Assembly: GCA_025980435.1 (NCBI GenBank)
Contig: JAICXK010000025.1
Coordinates: 1-33,473 of the forward strand
Source: Bryobacteraceae bacterium
GTDB lineage: Bacteria > Acidobacteriota > Terriglobia > Bryobacterales > Bryobacteraceae
DNA: 33,473 bases
Reading direction: 5' to 3'
The position numbers and the translations under genes are program-made. Position 1 is the stretch's first letter, and every line of letters starts with the position of its first letter. The notes under the pieces are model-generated. The model searched no databases. It was not told the DNA's origin and saw nothing but the letters and a program-made list of their open reading frames with translations. This document shows, piece by piece, positions 114 through 13,411 of the stretch.

Positions 114-461
114 ATGGGAGAAATTCAGCGAGGAGAGATCTGGTGGGCGGACCTTCCGGCGCCTCGCCGCTCCGAACCCGGACACAGGCGGCCGGTACTT
201 GTCGTGCAAGCGGATTCTTTTAACCTCAGCCGAATTCAAACCGTAATCGTCGCCTCGATAACTACCAACCTGAGACTCGCCGATGCGCCGGGAAACGTTC
301 TCTTACCGGCGTCCGTGTCCGGCCTCCCCCGCGACTCAGTCGTGAATGTTTCGCAACTCCTGACCCTCGATCGCAGCTTTCTGACGGAACATGCCGGCAC
401 TCTGCCGCCGCGCCTGGAGCGCTCCGTCGATGAGGGATTGCGAATTGTCCTGCACTTGTAG
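114..461 (+). CDS. PemK/MazF-family endoribonuclease toxin
   Basis: [37 protein letters not shown]...[11 protein letters not shown] matches the MazF/PemK family pattern. Confidence 0.93.
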
Positions 462-2242: not shown

Positions 2243-2346
2243 TGCCGCAGGCTGACGGACCCGTCTCGAACCCTGTGTTAGCCTGTTAGCGTTCTCGCTG
2301 GAACACGCCAAGCCCGCTGGTTTGCGGGCCGCCACGACCTTTTGCC

Positions 2347-3822
2347 ATGTCGCTGCAAGTATTTTTGCAAGCTCAACTGCTCGGCGCCGAAGATTTCCTG
2401 TCCGCCCCGACGTCCGGAAGCGATTCCGGCGGCAAAGAGTTATTCGGTCGGTGCGCATGGCTGACGCTCCTGTGCGAGGTCTTACCACGGGCGCTGCTGG
2501 CAGATCTAAAGCTTTCGCGTATGCTGCTCGGCTCCAGTAGCGCGGAGCAGTTCCTGCTCGTCCTCGCGGAAGAGGAAATCCCACACGCCAACGAGTTTCT
2601 GGCGCGCGCGGCCGAATCCATTTCCGAGCTTTCGGACGGGGAATTGCGCCTGGTTTGGGCCAGTACCGAAAACCTGGGCGCATGGCCGGTTGCACGGAAG
2701 AGAGTAGACGACGCGCTCGCTGCCAAACAGTCGGCCTCGCTCGGTCCAGGTACGGCGGACCGCAGCGCATTCTTTTCGCCCTTCTTCCCGCCGGCGCGGC
2801 CTGGCAGAGACTCCTATTTCGAAGATTTCGCCCGGAAGCTGGTGTCCGCTCAACGAATCGGCTGGTCAAGCGAGCGGCCCGCACGCCTGACATGGGATGA
2901 AGGACAGTACACGTGGGCCTTAAAGGAGCAGTCCGGACTTGAGGACGACGGCATACTGTTTCCGCGCTGCATCGCCATGAACGATGCAGGCACGGAAGTT
3001 GCCTCGCCCGAAGAGCTGGCCGGCCGTGCGGAAGGAAATGCCAAGTGGGGCATGCTGCGCGGCGACGTGGATCACTTCGATCTTCAGTTACGGCGCGCCG
3101 GCACCATCGAAGACCATCTGCACTTGTCGGTCGCCTTCAAAGATTTTTTCGCCGGCGAGTTAGCTCTTGTTTGTACCCGAATCCCTGACTTCTGGCGCAA
3201 GGTCAGCATCCTCTATCGCGGCGGCGATGGATTCACGGTGTTAGGGACCTGGGATGCCCTGATTGTGCTAGCCCGCGAATTGCAGCGCCTGTTCGAAAAA
3301 TTCATCGAACACAATTTTGAATCGCTGCCGGGCGTGGAAGCGAAAACCCTGAGCATGGCGCTGGCGATCGCGGCCGAACCGCAAACTCCGGCTTCGCTGG
3401 TGCTGCAGGAGGCGAGCATGCTACTGCGTGCCGCCAAATCGACCGACCTCGGCTCCTTCCATCTCTTTGGGCGGACACTTGAATGGAAACGGCTGGAGGA
3501 TGCCGAAGAGCTGAAAGACGGCCTGGTCAGGCTGGTTACAAAATTCGGCTATCCGCCCGATTACATTCACGACCTCGCATCTGTATATCGCGAGGCATTT
3601 TCGACGCGGGCCGGCCGGCGCAGCAAGGCGGTTCGACTCGATAAGCCCTGGCGCACGTATCTACGCCTCTCGCGAGTCATTCCCGCGGCCCGCGGCAAAG
3701 AGGCAAACGGCTTGCGCAATGCCGTTATTACAAACCTGGTGGGAAAGAGAACCGCCAATATGAAACTGCGGCCGTCGGCGCGCGTGGGTCTGGAATGGGC
3801 GCGTCTCGCAGCCGGAAGCTGA
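2347..3822 (+). CDS. cas10: Cas10/Csm1-like large subunit, short, without HD domain, palm motif GGDG
   Basis: KWGMLRGDVDHFDLQL...LSVAFKDFFAGELALVC...VSILYRGGDGFTVLGTWDALIVLARELQRLFEKFI...LSMALAIA matches the Cas10 palm-2 layout; first gene of a csm operon. Confidence 0.88.
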   Translation: MSLQVFLQAQLLGAEDFLSAPTSGSDSGGKELFGRCAWLTLLCEVLPRALLADLKLSRMLLGSSSAEQFLLVLAEEEIPHANEFLARAAESISELSDGELRLVWASTENLGAWPVARKRVDDALAAKQSASLGPGTADRSAFFSPFFPPARPGRDSYFEDFARKLVSAQRIGWSSERPARLTWDEGQYTWALKEQSGLEDDGILFPRCIAMNDAGTEVASPEELAGRAEGNAKWGMLRGDVDHFDLQLRRAGTIEDHLHLSVAFKDFFAGELALVCTRIPDFWRKVSILYRGGDGFTVLGTWDALIVLARELQRLFEKFIEHNFESLPGVEAKTLSMALAIAAEPQTPASLVLQEASMLLRAAKSTDLGSFHLFGRTLEWKRLEDAEELKDGLVRLVTKFGYPPDYIHDLASVYREAFSTRAGRRSKAVRLDKPWRTYLRLSRVIPAARGKEANGLRNAVITNLVGKRTANMKLRPSARVGLEWARLAAGS

Positions 3823-3868
3823 AAACTGATGGCTAAAGCCGATGGCTCATGGCTGACGGCTGAACGCT
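3818..3868. repeat. Degenerate 7-bp tandem repeat (GCTGANG-like) between cas10 and csm2
   Basis: gctgaaa|actgatg|gctaaag|ccgatg|gctcatg|gctgacg|gctgaac|gct. Confidence 0.7.
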
Positions 3869-3887
3869 ATTCTCCGAAAGGAATTGC

Positions 3888-4409
3888 ATGGCTGAAGTAG
3901 AGGAAAAGAAAACCGAAGAACGCCGGCCCGGGGACAACCGGCCCCCTCGCGAGAATCGCGGAGGCGGACGGCCGAACGATCGTGGCGAGCGCGGTCCGGG
4001 CGACCGGGGACGTGAACGCGGCGGCCCTGGCGCGGGGCGCGGTCCGGGCGATCGCCGCGGCGAAGGTCCGCCCGAGATCGACCTCGAAAAGCTGATCAGC
4101 GATAGTCTCTATCTGGACAATCAGGCCCATGTCATCGTCAGCCGGATGCGCGATATGGATTCCGGTACCAAGAGCCAGTTGCGCCGTTTGTATAACGCGG
4201 TGCGGCGGGCCACACGGGCGCCCGAGACCGAGCGCCAGCATGAGTTCGTGATGGTTCGGGCACGTTTGGCCTATACCATCGCCCGGCATTCTTTACGCAG
4301 CATGGATGCTCTCGAACGGCTGCTCCTGCAGGTCACCCGGAAGAATGATACGCGCGGATACGAACGTTTCCGCGACCTGTTTGAGGCGATCGTCGCTTAT
4401 AACGAATAA
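3888..4409 (+). CDS. csm2: Csm2 small subunit with Arg/Gly-rich N-terminal extension
   Basis: C-terminal helical core SQLRRLYNAVRRATRA...RARLAYTIARHS...YERFRDLFEAIVAYNE is Csm2-like; position between cas10 and csm3. Confidence 0.87.
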   Translation: MAEVEEKKTEERRPGDNRPPRENRGGGRPNDRGERGPGDRGRERGGPGAGRGPGDRRGEGPPEIDLEKLISDSLYLDNQAHVIVSRMRDMDSGTKSQLRRLYNAVRRATRAPETERQHEFVMVRARLAYTIARHSLRSMDALERLLLQVTRKNDTRGYERFRDLFEAIVAYNE

Positions 4410-4437
4410 CCCGTACAAACGAATTGGACAAACGAAC

Positions 4438-5271
4438 ATGAGTTCTCATACTGCGGAAACGGAGCTTACCTTCCTTGGCAAGCTGGTGCTTGAAGGCGAA
4501 ATCCAGTGTCAGACCGGGCTGCACATCGGCGCGGGCAAGGGCTCGCTTGAAATCGGCGGCGCTGATAATCCGGTAGTCAAAGACGCCTTCGGCATCCCGT
4601 ATATTCCCGGCAGCTCCCTGCGTGGACGCCTTCGCTCGCTTCTGGAACAGTCGTTGGGTCTTGCGGTTCCGAACGAACTGGTTTACCTCTCCAAGCGCAA
4701 GGGACAGGAGGTTCGTATCCACCAAAGCGACCGCCCCGATGACGACATTTGCGTTCTCTTCGGCCGCAATCCCGGCCGGGTTGAGAAAGTGACCGGAGAG
4801 TCCATTGAAGCGCCGGCCGCCACGCCAGCCCGGCTGACCGTGTATGATGCGCCTCTACTGTTGGACAGCATTACCACCCAAATGCGTGAGAATCTGGACG
4901 ATGAATTAACCGAAGTGAAAAGCGAAAACGCTGTGGATCGCATCACTTCGCAAGCCAATCCCCGGACCCTGGAACGCGTGCCGGCCAGCGCGCGGTTTCG
5001 CTTTCGCATGGTGCTGGATGTTTTGTGCGCGGAAGATAAGCCGCTGCTGGCGCGCGTTGCCGAAGGGCTGCGTCTGCTGGAAGATGATTCGCTCGGCGGC
5101 GGCGGCAGCCGTGGCAGCGGCCGGGTCAACTTTAGCGGGTTGACTCTTACGTGGCGTGGCAAGGATTACTACGCCAAGGGCGCTGCCGAGAACGTTCTTC
5201 TCTCGGATTCCGGTCTGCCCGCTTTGCAGCAGCTTGCAAGCGCGGAGGACTTCGCCGAGAAGCTTGCCTAA
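4438..5271 (+). CDS. csm3: Csm3 (Cas7-type RAMP) backbone subunit; start set at ATG 4438, not the track's 4306
   Basis: TGLHIGAGKGSLEIGGADNPVVKDAFGIPYIPGSSLRGRLRSLLEQ, TEVKSENAVDRITSQANPRTLERVP, LGGGGSRGSGRV: diagnostic Csm3 blocks. Confidence 0.97.
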   Translation: MSSHTAETELTFLGKLVLEGEIQCQTGLHIGAGKGSLEIGGADNPVVKDAFGIPYIPGSSLRGRLRSLLEQSLGLAVPNELVYLSKRKGQEVRIHQSDRPDDDICVLFGRNPGRVEKVTGESIEAPAATPARLTVYDAPLLLDSITTQMRENLDDELTEVKSENAVDRITSQANPRTLERVPASARFRFRMVLDVLCAEDKPLLARVAEGLRLLEDDSLGGGGSRGSGRVNFSGLTLTWRGKDYYAKGAAENVLLSDSGLPALQQLASAEDFAEKLA

Positions 5272-6426
5272 ATGCAGCAGGCGCTTCTGATTCGCCTCCG
5301 GCCCGCGGGCCCCTGGCGTTATGGTCCCGCCGATGGCGGGCTTGACCGCGTTGACACGCTGTTTCGCAGCGATCGGCTCTATTCCGCCGTCACAATCGCC
5401 ATGCGCCAGTTAGGCTTTTTGGAAGAATGGCTGGCGGTTACGGCGCAGGCCCCGGTTTCGCAGGTGGCGTTCAGCTCGCTGTTTCCTTTCCAGGGCGATT
5501 CTCTCTTCGCGATTCCACCGGCAACCGCCTGGCCGCCTTCTTCCGGATTGGTGACCACGCCCAGCCCGGTGTTCTTGAGCAAAATTCGCTGGAAAGCGGC
5601 TCAGTTCGTTCCACTCACGCTGCTCGATTCACTCTTCACCGGTCAGCCTATTCTGGCGGATCAATGGGTCCCCGATGCCGAAAGCGGATGCTTATTGCGA
5701 CGCGACCGGCCCAGCTCGAGCCCGTTTCGCATCGTGATTCGGAGCGGCGCGGCGGTTGACCGGCTGGCGCATCGTTCTGCCCAGGTACATTCGGCGGCCT
5801 GCGTCGAATTCGAACCCGCGTCCGGATTGTGGAGCGTCGTGCGGTTCGCCGGCGAGCCGGCTGAATCCGCCTGGGCTGATCGCATCCAGGCTGCGTTTCG
5901 TCTGCTTGCAGATACCGGTTTCGGCGGCCGCCGCACCAGTGGCTGGGGCCAGACGCACGCGCCGGAATTCCAGCGCGGGCGCTGGCCAAACCTGCTTTTC
6001 CCGCGGTTAGCCAGAAGTCTTGAACAGCGAAATGGCTCAGCTAACGGCCATAGCGGCTCGCAGTTCTGGCTGCTCTCGTTGTACTCACCCGCTTCAACGG
6101 ACCAGATCGATTGGGATTCCGGAGATTACCGGTTGGCCACCCGTGCAGGCGTGGAAACGAAGTCCCTTCGCATGCTCACGGAAGGTTCGGTCGTAACTGC
6201 TCACTCCGAACCGGTCGGTGCTGCTGTCGATGTTGCAACGGAGGGATTCGCGCACCCGGTCTACCGCTCGGGAGTGGCCCTGGCCTTAGAACTGCCCGCC
6301 ATGGAGGGACCGAAGCTGGAAGAACCGGTCGAGCAGGCGTCAACGGAAGAGGCGATTGAAGAGCAGCCCTGCCCTGAACCGGCGCGAGACAGCATTAGTT
6401 CCGGAGGACCGGACGATGAATTTTAA
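5272..6426 (+). CDS. csm4: Csm4 (Cas5-type RAMP) with extra acidic C-terminal tail
   Basis: RSDRLYSAVTIAMRQLG, FSSLFPFQGDSLFAIPP, DTGFGGRRTSGWGQ, EGSVVTAHSEPVGAAVDVATEGFAHPVYRSGVALALELP; starts directly after the csm3 stop. Confidence 0.93.
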   Translation: MQQALLIRLRPAGPWRYGPADGGLDRVDTLFRSDRLYSAVTIAMRQLGFLEEWLAVTAQAPVSQVAFSSLFPFQGDSLFAIPPATAWPPSSGLVTTPSPVFLSKIRWKAAQFVPLTLLDSLFTGQPILADQWVPDAESGCLLRRDRPSSSPFRIVIRSGAAVDRLAHRSAQVHSAACVEFEPASGLWSVVRFAGEPAESAWADRIQAAFRLLADTGFGGRRTSGWGQTHAPEFQRGRWPNLLFPRLARSLEQRNGSANGHSGSQFWLLSLYSPASTDQIDWDSGDYRLATRAGVETKSLRMLTEGSVVTAHSEPVGAAVDVATEGFAHPVYRSGVALALELPAMEGPKLEEPVEQASTEEAIEEQPCPEPARDSISSGGPDDEF

Positions 6427-7558
6427 GCTCACCGCTCTTACCCCGCTGCTGGTCGGCGATGGCCGTGAGCTTGCGCCCATCGACTACATGGTTTGGAAAG
6501 ATCAGGTGAATGTTCTCGATCAGGCCCGCATTTTCAAACTCCTGTCGCGCGGCCCCCGGCTCGAAGGCTACCTGACCCAGCTACGCAAGGCCACCAAGCT
6601 CGATTTCGCCTCCTGGGGAGGCTTCGCCCAAAACTTTTCGCAGCGCCGAATCCCGTTCGAGGATCCGGGCGCAACGGCGATCTGGAACGCCGCTCCCTCC
6701 GAATCGCTATTCATCCAAACGTTCGCGGCTAATCTGAGCGGCCCCTATCTGCCGGGTTCGGCTCTTAAGGGAGCCCTCCGTACCGGGCTCGTTTTCACGC
6801 GCTGGACGCCGGCCACCTTGGAGCGCGCGGCCGCTTCGCTGGAAAGCGATCGCGTTCCGCGCCGGATCGCCGAGACCGCGGAGGCAAATGCCGGCGCTTC
6901 GCAGATGAAGATCATCAGCATCGCTGACGGAACTCCGGCATCGGGCGCGGTATTCAAAATCTTTCTCACCCGGGTGGCATCGCTGGACACGCGCCAGGCC
7001 GGAAGGCCGCAGCTTGCCTGGAAGGTTGCCGGGCGCGGCAGCGTGCCTCCGCCGCGTGTATTCGACTCCACGCCGATTTTTGCCGAAATGGCCGTTCCCG
7101 GCACTGTATTCGGCGGATCCTGGGAGGAACGAACCTTTTTTGAAAATCCGGATCTCGCGCGCGCTCTGGGGTGGCGCTCGTCTCCCGAGCCGCGCACGAT
7201 AACCGATGCTGCAAACCAGTACGCGTCGGCCCAGCTCGATTTGCATGCCCGCTTCGCCGATGCAGCCGGGCTTTCCGGCCTACAGAATGGTGTCAAACAT
7301 CTGAAGGAGGAATTGGAAGCGGCGCAGAAATCCTCGCTCATCTGCCTTTTGTCGCTCGGCTGGGGCGGGGGGTTCGTTTCCAAGAGCGCCTTTCCCGATA
7401 CGAGCCTGGATGCCTACCGGAAAATTCTTCGCGCCGTACCGGCCATCAGTAGAGGAATTCGGGAAAATGTGCCATTTCCGAAGACGCGTCGGGTAATTTT
7501 CACAGGCGGGCAGCCATCGGCATTGGCGGGTTGGGTCAGGCTGGAGCTGGAACCGTAG
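6416..7558 (+). CDS. csm5: Csm5 RAMP subunit; likely ATG at 6416, overlapping csm4 by 11 nt
   Basis: MNFKLTALTPLLVGDGRELAPIDYMVWKD, YLPGSALKGALRTGL, LLSLGWGGGFVSKS, PKTRRVIFTGGQPSALAGWVRLEL. Confidence 0.94.
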   Translation: MNFKLTALTPLLVGDGRELAPIDYMVWKDQVNVLDQARIFKLLSRGPRLEGYLTQLRKATKLDFASWGGFAQNFSQRRIPFEDPGATAIWNAAPSESLFIQTFAANLSGPYLPGSALKGALRTGLVFTRWTPATLERAAASLESDRVPRRIAETAEANAGASQMKIISIADGTPASGAVFKIFLTRVASLDTRQAGRPQLAWKVAGRGSVPPPRVFDSTPIFAEMAVPGTVFGGSWEERTFFENPDLARALGWRSSPEPRTITDAANQYASAQLDLHARFADAAGLSGLQNGVKHLKEELEAAQKSSLICLLSLGWGGGFVSKSAFPDTSLDAYRKILRAVPAISRGIRENVPFPKTRRVIFTGGQPSALAGWVRLELEP

Positions 7559-7712: not shown

Positions 7713-8621
7713 ATGCAGAGCGCGATCTACAATGCGTACTTTGGGTTTTCGGAAAACCCCTTCAATATCAGTCCCGATCCCGAATTCCTCTATCGTAGTC
7801 CGCAGCACGAAGAGGCGCTCGCGAACCTGATCTATGGCGTGCGAGGGCGCAAAGGGTTCATCGTGCTTAGCGGTGAAGTCGGGACAGGCAAGACCACCAT
7901 GCTCGAATGCCTGCGAGACTACCTCGATTCGCAGCGCATCGAGTTCGCGTTTATCTTCAACTCACGGCTCACGCCAGATCAGTTTTTCGACATGATGGCG
8001 TACGATTTCGATCTGCAGTGCGATCGAAAGTCGAAGACGGATGTGCTGGTCGCTCTGAACGCTCTGCTCGTACAGCAGGCCGAGCGGGGTCGAACATGTG
8101 TCCTCATCGTGGATGAAGCGCACAATCTCGATTGGGACGTGCTCGAAGAGATTCGGCTGCTTGGTAATCTCGAAAACCGGCAGGGCAAGCTTTTACAGAT
8201 CATTCTTGCCGGACAGCCTGAGCTCGACCGGAAGCTGGATGCGCCGAATCTGAGACAGTTGAAGCAGCGAGTTGTGCTCCGCTGTACCTTGAATCCGCTC
8301 ACCGCGGATGAGTGCGCGGCTTACGTCGAGACCCGGTTGGCGCACGCCGGTATGACCCGGCAGAGCGTCTTCTCTCCCGAGGTGTTGGAGGAAGTGGCCC
8401 GGCGTTCCCGGGGTATTCCGCGCCTCATCAATCTGCTCTGCGATAACCTGCTGGTGACGGCCTTCGCCATGGAGCAGCGTGCCGCCAGCATCGACATGCT
8501 GGACGAGGTCTGCCAGGACCTGCGTCTGGAATGGCCGGGTTCGCATCGTGGGCGCGGCCGCTCTTCGAGGTACAGCATGGATGAAGAATTGCCTCAGACT
8601 CCCTACGCAGTCGGGGATTGA
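7713..8621 (+). CDS. ExeA-like AAA ATPase (XrtA/PEP-CTERM system-associated type)
   Basis: MQSAIYNAYFGFSENPFNISPDPEFLYRSPQHEEALANLIYGV, Walker A GEVGTGKTT, Walker B VLIVDEAHN; next to exosortase. Confidence 0.88.
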   Translation: MQSAIYNAYFGFSENPFNISPDPEFLYRSPQHEEALANLIYGVRGRKGFIVLSGEVGTGKTTMLECLRDYLDSQRIEFAFIFNSRLTPDQFFDMMAYDFDLQCDRKSKTDVLVALNALLVQQAERGRTCVLIVDEAHNLDWDVLEEIRLLGNLENRQGKLLQIILAGQPELDRKLDAPNLRQLKQRVVLRCTLNPLTADECAAYVETRLAHAGMTRQSVFSPEVLEEVARRSRGIPRLINLLCDNLLVTAFAMEQRAASIDMLDEVCQDLRLEWPGSHRGRGRSSRYSMDEELPQTPYAVGD

Positions 8622-10980: not shown

Positions 10981-11965
<985 letters not shown>

Positions 11966-11973
<8 letters not shown>

Positions 11974-13411
11974 ACGGATACGGGCAGGCGGCCAATTCCG
12001 CGGCCTGGTCGCCCGCGGCTCGCATTGCAGCCGCCAACCTCTCGCGCAAATCCTTCTCGATCTCCAGCGTCTCCCGCCTGCCGGCCAGATTGACAAGCTG
12101 ATAAGGATCGGCATAGTTATCGTAAAGCTGAAAAGAGAAATAGCGCGGGGCGGAGCGCATCGGTCGATAGCCGCCTTCCTCGCGCGGAGCCACTGCGGCA
12201 TACGTCCATTGAGGAGTTCGCAGCGCGCGTCCCGTCCAGAACTCCGACAATTGGATGAACACTTCCTCCTGCCAGTTATCGGACTTTCCGGCGACGAGAG
12301 GCATGGCACTGCGGCCCTGCATGGAAGAGGGAACCGCCAGACCAACTGCGTCGAGCAATGTGGGGGTCAGGTCGATCATCCTGGTGAAGTGGCGCACCTC
12401 GCGACCGCCTTCGAATCCGGGCCCTTCGATCAGCAGGGGAATGCGGATTGACGCGTCATGCGCGCTGCGTTTGTATTCCGTGTTGCGCGTCATGAAATGG
12501 CATCCGTGATCGCTTACAAAGACGAGTATTGTCCGTTTGTCGAGTCTTCTGCGAGTCAGTTCATCGCGGATCCTGCCAAAGCCTTCATCGACGCTCCGGA
12601 TGCAGCCGTAGTAAGAAGGCAAATGTTGCTGCCAGGTACCGGGGAGGTGGCGCAGATCTTCGGGTACGGCGGGATTCCGATAGCGCTCGGCATATCCGGG
12701 CGGCGCCACAAAACGCTTCTCGTCGTTCTGATGATGCGGCTCGAGATAGGAAACGACCAGCAGAAAGGGCGTGGACGTGGTGACGCGGCCGAGGAAATCA
12801 GTGGCCAGCCGGGTTAAAAAACCTACGCGGTATTCGTTCTGAAAGTGGATGGCGCGGCCGTCCGAATCGTAAAGATCGCCCTCGAAAGGATGCGAGGTCA
12901 GCTCAAGCTCGTTCGAAGCCTGCCACAGATTTAGAAATCCTCCGCGCTCCTGCGCTGAAACCGGTCCGTGCGTACCTTCGGCTAAGTGCCATTTGCCGAT
13001 GTAGTTCGCGGAGAATCCCGCCTTCCGGCATTCTGTGGCGAGCGTCGTGGCAGTTGGATTGAGCGCGACGCCATTGCCGGTATTGCGCCATACTCCGTTG
13101 CGTGCCGGATACTGGCCGGTGAACAGGCAGGCGCGGGAGGGGCTGCACAGCGGCTGATTCGTAAACATGTTTCGAAACAGCGTGCCGCGGCTCGCCATGG
13201 CATCCAGATTGGGCGTGAGCTGAACGGGATTCAGACCGTACGCGCTCACGGCATCCCGGCGCACCTGATCCGCGATGACGATCACGATATTGGGAGCAGT
13301 AAGTGACGATTCGGCGGCCAGCGCGGAAGAAGCCGCCAAGACGGGCGCCGCTGAGGTTACAAATTCCCTACGGGATACGTTCGAGCGGTTCTCGCGGGAA
13401 ATTTCAGGCAT
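11966..13411 (-). CDS. Cys-type sulfatase with Tat-like signal
   Basis: [21 protein letters not shown] signal; [44 protein letters not shown]. Confidence 0.95.

Follow-up and report, generated by a model that had tools for sequence, protein, structure and literature searches.

Why would a bacterium keep a complete type III-A effector operon with no CRISPR array in sight? The question is raised by the window (the whole stretch of 33,473 nucleotides analysed here), which carries cas10-csm2-csm3-csm4-csm5 on the plus strand at 2347-7558, each subunit being named by both Pfam and PADLOC, and in which we found neither a CRISPR array nor an Rfam match. An earlier note on this DNA had described a five-gene type III-A operon in this order, an orphan effector with no array in 33 kb, and all of this holds for the window (Table 1). 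Our comparison across the Bryobacteraceae, a family of soil bacteria in the Acidobacteriota, suggests that their near-universal and slowly evolving Csm set, which mostly has neither adaptation genes nor arrays close by, has been taken over for a housekeeping RNA job.

Table 1. Coordinates of the features discussed in the text (window positions unless a locus is named)
Feature	Position	Strand	Remarks
PemK/MazF-type toxin gene	114..461		just upstream of proS
Promoter-like extended -10 (TGTGTTAGCCT)	2274..2284	+	similar TGTGNTAGANT words precede cas10 at many loci of the family
5'-leader hairpin GCCCGC/GCGGGC	2312..2329	+	before cas10; confined to window genus and neighbours
cas10 (csm1-like)	2347..3822	+	palm1, palm2 and C-terminal helical domains; HD absent; GGDG instead of GGDD
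csm2 (Cas11)	3888..4409	+	Arg/Gly-rich N-terminal extension, near-invariant core
csm3 (Cas7)	4438..5271	+	ATG at 4438; catalytic Asp within GGADNPVVKD
csm4 (Cas5)	5272..6426	+	
csm5 (Cas7-like)	6416..7558	+	ATG at 6416
ExeA-like AAA+ ATPase	7713..8621	+	directly downstream of csm5
Formylglycine-enzyme-like and sulfatase-like genes	10981..13411	-	by eye
Type I-C locus with array	L139:264-9000		other contig of the window genome
Tandem repeat, 54 nt	L050:6972-7347		beside operon or cas6
Tandem repeat, 70 nt	L040:5587-5936		beside operon or cas6
Tandem repeat, 67 nt	L188:8133-8333		beside operon or cas6

Catalytic features of the Csm subunits

The mechanical open reading frames start too early for csm3 (4306) and csm5 (6356). 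The AlphaFold2 model of Cas10 (mean pLDDT 86, from a 42-row alignment) has Csm1 chains as its best matches in the PDB (Foldseek, E down to 6e-19, TMq 0.70-0.77), and these chains are longer than the window protein, whose fold starts at palm1; Pfam recognises palm2 and, close to the N-terminus, gives a weak match to palm1. Protein length and Pfam domain content together indicate that the HD domain is absent and, since the N-terminal start of Cas10 is almost invariant across the Bryobacteraceae, no HD has been overlooked upstream. The earlier claim of a Cas10 devoid of its HD DNase is thus borne out, and the loss extends to the whole family. An HD nuclease is common in III-A Cas10 proteins and is not obligatory for type III.

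The cyclase motif behaves differently. The palm2 motif reads GGDG in the window, as the earlier note described, but this is a local variant only. The commonest motif in the family is GGDD: of 85 complete operons, 60 retain it and the other 25 depart from it. On the operon tree GGDD has been altered at least 12 times with the operon intact. Genera g7 and g3 have lost both this motif and the first palm Asp, g22 and g54 likewise depart from GGDD, and the palm motifs are strongly degenerate in four loci whose operons are otherwise intact (L143 and L146 of g7, L206 of g54, L207 of g22). The GGDG of the window is one of many losses of the cyclase motif in the family. A system stripped of cyclic-oligoadenylate synthesis, as had been proposed, therefore fits the window species and a minority of lineages but not the family overall; GGDD is kept by most lineages, and in many of these the cyclase may still be of importance.

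The RNase Asp of Csm3 is the sole catalytic feature that has no exception in the family. The window motif GGADNPVVKD aligns with the GGxDNPV of solved Csm3 proteins, as the earlier note had it, and the Asp is retained in all 116 distinct core orthologues. It is also present in seven more distant Csm3 proteins, and its conservation therefore reflects retention rather than a new function. From this one conserved residue we infer RNase activity for Csm3.

Distribution and inheritance in the Bryobacteraceae

Homologues of the HD-less window Cas10 occur in 219 of 237 Bryobacteraceae genomes (~92%), typically one per genome, and in 72 of the 76 genera, and the gene order was identical in all 20 loci first fetched; a search for the same cas10-csm2-5 set in relatives, which the earlier note had proposed, thus finds it in nearly all family genomes with its order conserved. 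The operon is also present in a Bryobacteraceae isolate, KBS 96. No Cas10 homologue was found in genomes of other families of the order, among those listed, and elsewhere in the phylum there are only weak palm2 matches with 24-34% identity. Among the high-completeness genomes that have no Cas10 are some from genera g19 and g28. In one further genome (G122) csm2-5 lie at a contig end, and the missing cas10 is therefore an assembly gap. A second intact type III locus, which the earlier note had named as grounds against its reading, is not seen in the window genome, where a search with the window Cas10 returned no other copy.

Where several members of a genus were sampled, their clade in the operon tree is free of any other known genus. 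This genus-level clustering, together with a dN/dS of ~0.03-0.15 in most close pairs, points to vertical descent under purifying selection, and sporadic transfer of the operon is rejected by its distribution and by the same clustering. Higher dN/dS values are seen for csm4 and between more divergent loci, for which dS is saturated. As a rule, CRISPR effectors have a patchy distribution, evolve fast and spread by horizontal transfer. Here the mean identity to 11 other genera is 73.9% for Csm3 and 73.1% for the ProS encoded in the window, so that Csm3 evolves at about the rate of ProS, and the Csm2 core, at 87.6%, evolves more slowly. Among 104 distinct loci, broken reading frames were found in 0/103 cas10 and 0/104 csm3 genes. 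The missing HD domain, the altered GGDD and the lack of a linked array could be taken as marks of a CRISPR locus in decay, but we give this explanation a negligible probability: decay is rejected by the intact frames and by dN/dS values well below 1, and the operon persists in 92% of genomes. The check for purifying selection thus finds genes that are conserved and not decaying.

Guides, Cas6 and competing explanations

The operon is indifferent to CRISPR adaptation genes. We compared 120 family genomes with a completeness of 90% or more, 72 with Cas1 and 48 without; a cas10 of the window type is present in 70/72 of the former and 45/48 of the latter (Fisher p 0.39), which supports independence from adaptation genes. 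Arrays whose repeats end in GATTGAAAC occur in 23 of these 120 genomes, one of them Cas1-negative. A search for TTGAAA[C/G] in 29 Cas1-negative genomes, many of them draft assemblies, gave scattered matches and, among the matches listed, no repeat-spacer array of this one repeat type, to which the search is confined; as a positive control, the window genome's own type I-C array was recovered as seven consecutive matches. One small contig of genome G020 showed a tandem repeat in this search. There was no linked array near the operons of the fetched family loci. Tandem repeats do lie beside the operon or cas6 in three loci (Table 1), and they were rejected as CRISPR arrays, as whole units are conserved in them, which is not a repeat-spacer pattern.

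Extending the search to the whole window genome, as had been advised, changes the picture drawn by the earlier note, since both an array and a standalone Cas6 were found on other contigs. Contig C269 carries a complete locus with the order cas3-cas5-cas8c-cas7-cas4-cas1-cas2 and about 8 repeats (GTCGCGCCCCACGTGGGCGCGTGGATTGAAAC, the repeats ending in ATTGAAAC), which we read as subtype I-C from its gene order and repeat; Cas1-Cas2 of this genome occur only inside it. The standalone Cas6 lies on contig C276, and the claim that the operon had been stripped of all accessory genes is wrong: a core Cas6 is encoded elsewhere in the genome. A PF10040 search found Cas6 in 26 of 30 genomes (the window genome and 29 picked for Cas1 absence), and PF01881-type Cas6 was found in none of the 30. 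The family proteins have about 300 residues and are 35-52% identical to the window genome copy, and along its full length Cas6 matches a PADLOC Cas6 model (E 2e-72). The gene is unlinked to the Csm operon, and no array, conserved RNA or conserved neighbour was found beside it.

By profile search, Cas6 is present in most operon-positive genomes, and in 18 genomes of other families there was none except one weak match. Two genomes of g28 have Cas6 and no operon, four genomes (G233, G172, G145 and G154) have the operon and no core Cas6, and neither is present in any sampled g19 or g20 genome. What links Cas6 to the operon is this shared distribution, which has exceptions both ways; common ancestry explains it in part, and it may reflect such ancestry rather than function. 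A crRNA-processing Cas6 is, in any case, predicted for the family, from a gene unlinked to the operon.

Presence in ~92% of genomes, a rate of change like that of an aminoacyl-tRNA synthetase and indifference to adaptation genes together make strong comparative evidence for domestication. We consider it probable, at somewhat better than even odds, that the operon encodes a domesticated type III-A-derived RNA-binding or RNase complex with its own Cas6 and with guides independent of CRISPR adaptation. A type III-A effector would have been captured at the base of the Bryobacteraceae and have become a resident cellular RNA machine. The mechanism that we infer combines Cas6-processed fixed guides with Csm3 cleavage of complementary RNA: the Csm proteins would assemble on Cas6-trimmed RNAs from fixed chromosomal loci rather than from an adapting array, and the resulting Csm-like filament would bind complementary transcripts of the host or of a persistent parasite, which Csm3 would cut. 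DNA cleavage would have no part in this and cyclic-oligoadenylate signalling would be optional at most; in the window species, with its GGDG, only RNA cleavage or binding would be expected. A more specific version, in which Cas6 and a nuclease-reduced Csm complex use fixed chromosomal guides to cleave host mRNA in a housekeeping, RNA-interference-like pathway of gene regulation, is held more tentatively, at a little below an even chance. We found neither a guide RNA nor a target in the flanks of the operon and cas6 or among the TTGAAA[C/G] matches listed.

In other bacteria, the use of type I crRNAs by type III complexes is established, and the window genome has its type I-C locus on another contig, so the operon could encode a defence complex that is loaded in trans with crRNAs from whichever arrays the cell has and that adds RNA targeting. 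The earlier note had suggested crRNAs in trans, and for this genome the suggestion is workable, but it fails to explain why, across the family, the operon is retained in genomes that lack Cas1 and in which no array was detected. Just 23 of the 120 genomes have an array of the class found, the operon is equally frequent with and without Cas1, and Csm2 and Csm3 change at or below the rate of a housekeeping protein, unlike typical, fast-evolving cas genes; we regard this explanation as unlikely. It is also quite unlikely that the family retains an active cyclase-signalling type III system with effectors elsewhere, in which the loss of GGDD in the window and in other lineages is secondary: the majority of complete operons with GGDD and the palm Asp kept in most are set against at least 12 changes of GGDD in intact operons, some of them in genera that have lost both palm motifs, and against operon neighbours among which only an ExeA-like ATPase is common. 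A non-guided RNA-binding assembly (a scaffold or an RNA chaperone), with Cas6 in an unrelated role, would agree with a guide source not found in the places searched and with a Cas6 that has no conserved neighbours and is missing from some operon-positive genomes. Yet the catalytic Asp and glycine-rich loop of Csm3 are conserved, which suggests that crRNA-style binding and cleavage are retained, and we consider such an assembly very unlikely.

The domesticated complex that we favour shares with type III-A (Csm) effectors the content and order of its genes, the Csm1 fold and the Csm3 catalytic Asp. It differs from them in that it has no HD domain and an unstable cyclase motif, has no linked cas6, array, cas1-2 or csm6, and is part of the core genome of an entire family, in which it evolves at rates like those of housekeeping genes. 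Reductive type III subtypes and the array-less HRAMP/ARAMP are already known, and most III-B, III-C, III-E and III-F loci are stated to be without arrays (PMC12669027, PMC8730458); about 97% of Cas10s are counted as active, and the Acidobacteria are unmentioned in the main text (PMC12669027). The reductive subtypes (PMC12669027) share the loss of cyclase function or accessory genes, whereas the Bryobacteraceae keep all five Csm subunits, show repeated and scattered loss of GGDD and inherit the set vertically. HRAMP/ARAMP, array-less archaeal derivatives of type III, are likewise CRISPR-derived and confined to one clade (PMC8730458, PMC12669027), but they combine highly diverged Cas5/Cas7 with extra nucleases, and the Bryobacteraceae operon has clear Csm1 and Csm3-5 within a complete, recognisable Csm set, no nuclease partner and an unlinked Cas6. 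The myxobacterial dev operon (subtype I-B, sporulation; PMC8730458) is likewise a CRISPR module in a cellular function, of a different type, and in the Bryobacteraceae one set spans the whole family. In the literature searched, subscription papers excepted, we came across no account of a Csm operon that is core to a whole family and has a core Cas6 encoded apart from it. A family-wide type III effector is here accompanied by a matching core Cas6, the question of non-immune CRISPR functions can be put to a direct test in the isolate KBS 96, and a natural Csm complex that is HD-less and in places cyclase-less is on offer.

Upstream elements and neighbours of the operon

Upstream of cas10, k-mers such as CTGTGCTA occur in 16 of 92 upstream regions, compared with a shuffled maximum of 8-12, and -10-like words were recognised by eye in most of the other upstream regions printed. 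The leader hairpin has 6 pairs, 4 of which are changed on both sides; 95.6% of cells are paired, its covariation score was reached by 0 of 500 shuffles, and slid controls were at most 47% paired. Homologues, followed by GCYACGACC, are found in L031-L034, L051, L056-L060, L064, L069, L079 and L095, and no other copy of the 3' flank was found among the fetched loci. A family-wide 5'-leader RNA was not seen. An autoregulatory role or a Cas6 site is possible for the hairpin.

The exosortase cluster that the earlier note placed directly after the operon is a feature of the window, but across the family it is an ExeA-like ATPase gene that recurs in this place. Of 75 loci whose sequence extends far enough past csm5, 36 have it directly downstream in the same orientation, and they come from both sides of the operon tree. 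The ATPase is a possible but unproven operon partner, and no other common neighbour was found around the family operons. Near the start of the window, a partial open frame before the PemK/MazF-type toxin gene could be its antitoxin, and further downstream a formylglycine-enzyme-like gene stands beside a sulfatase-like gene.
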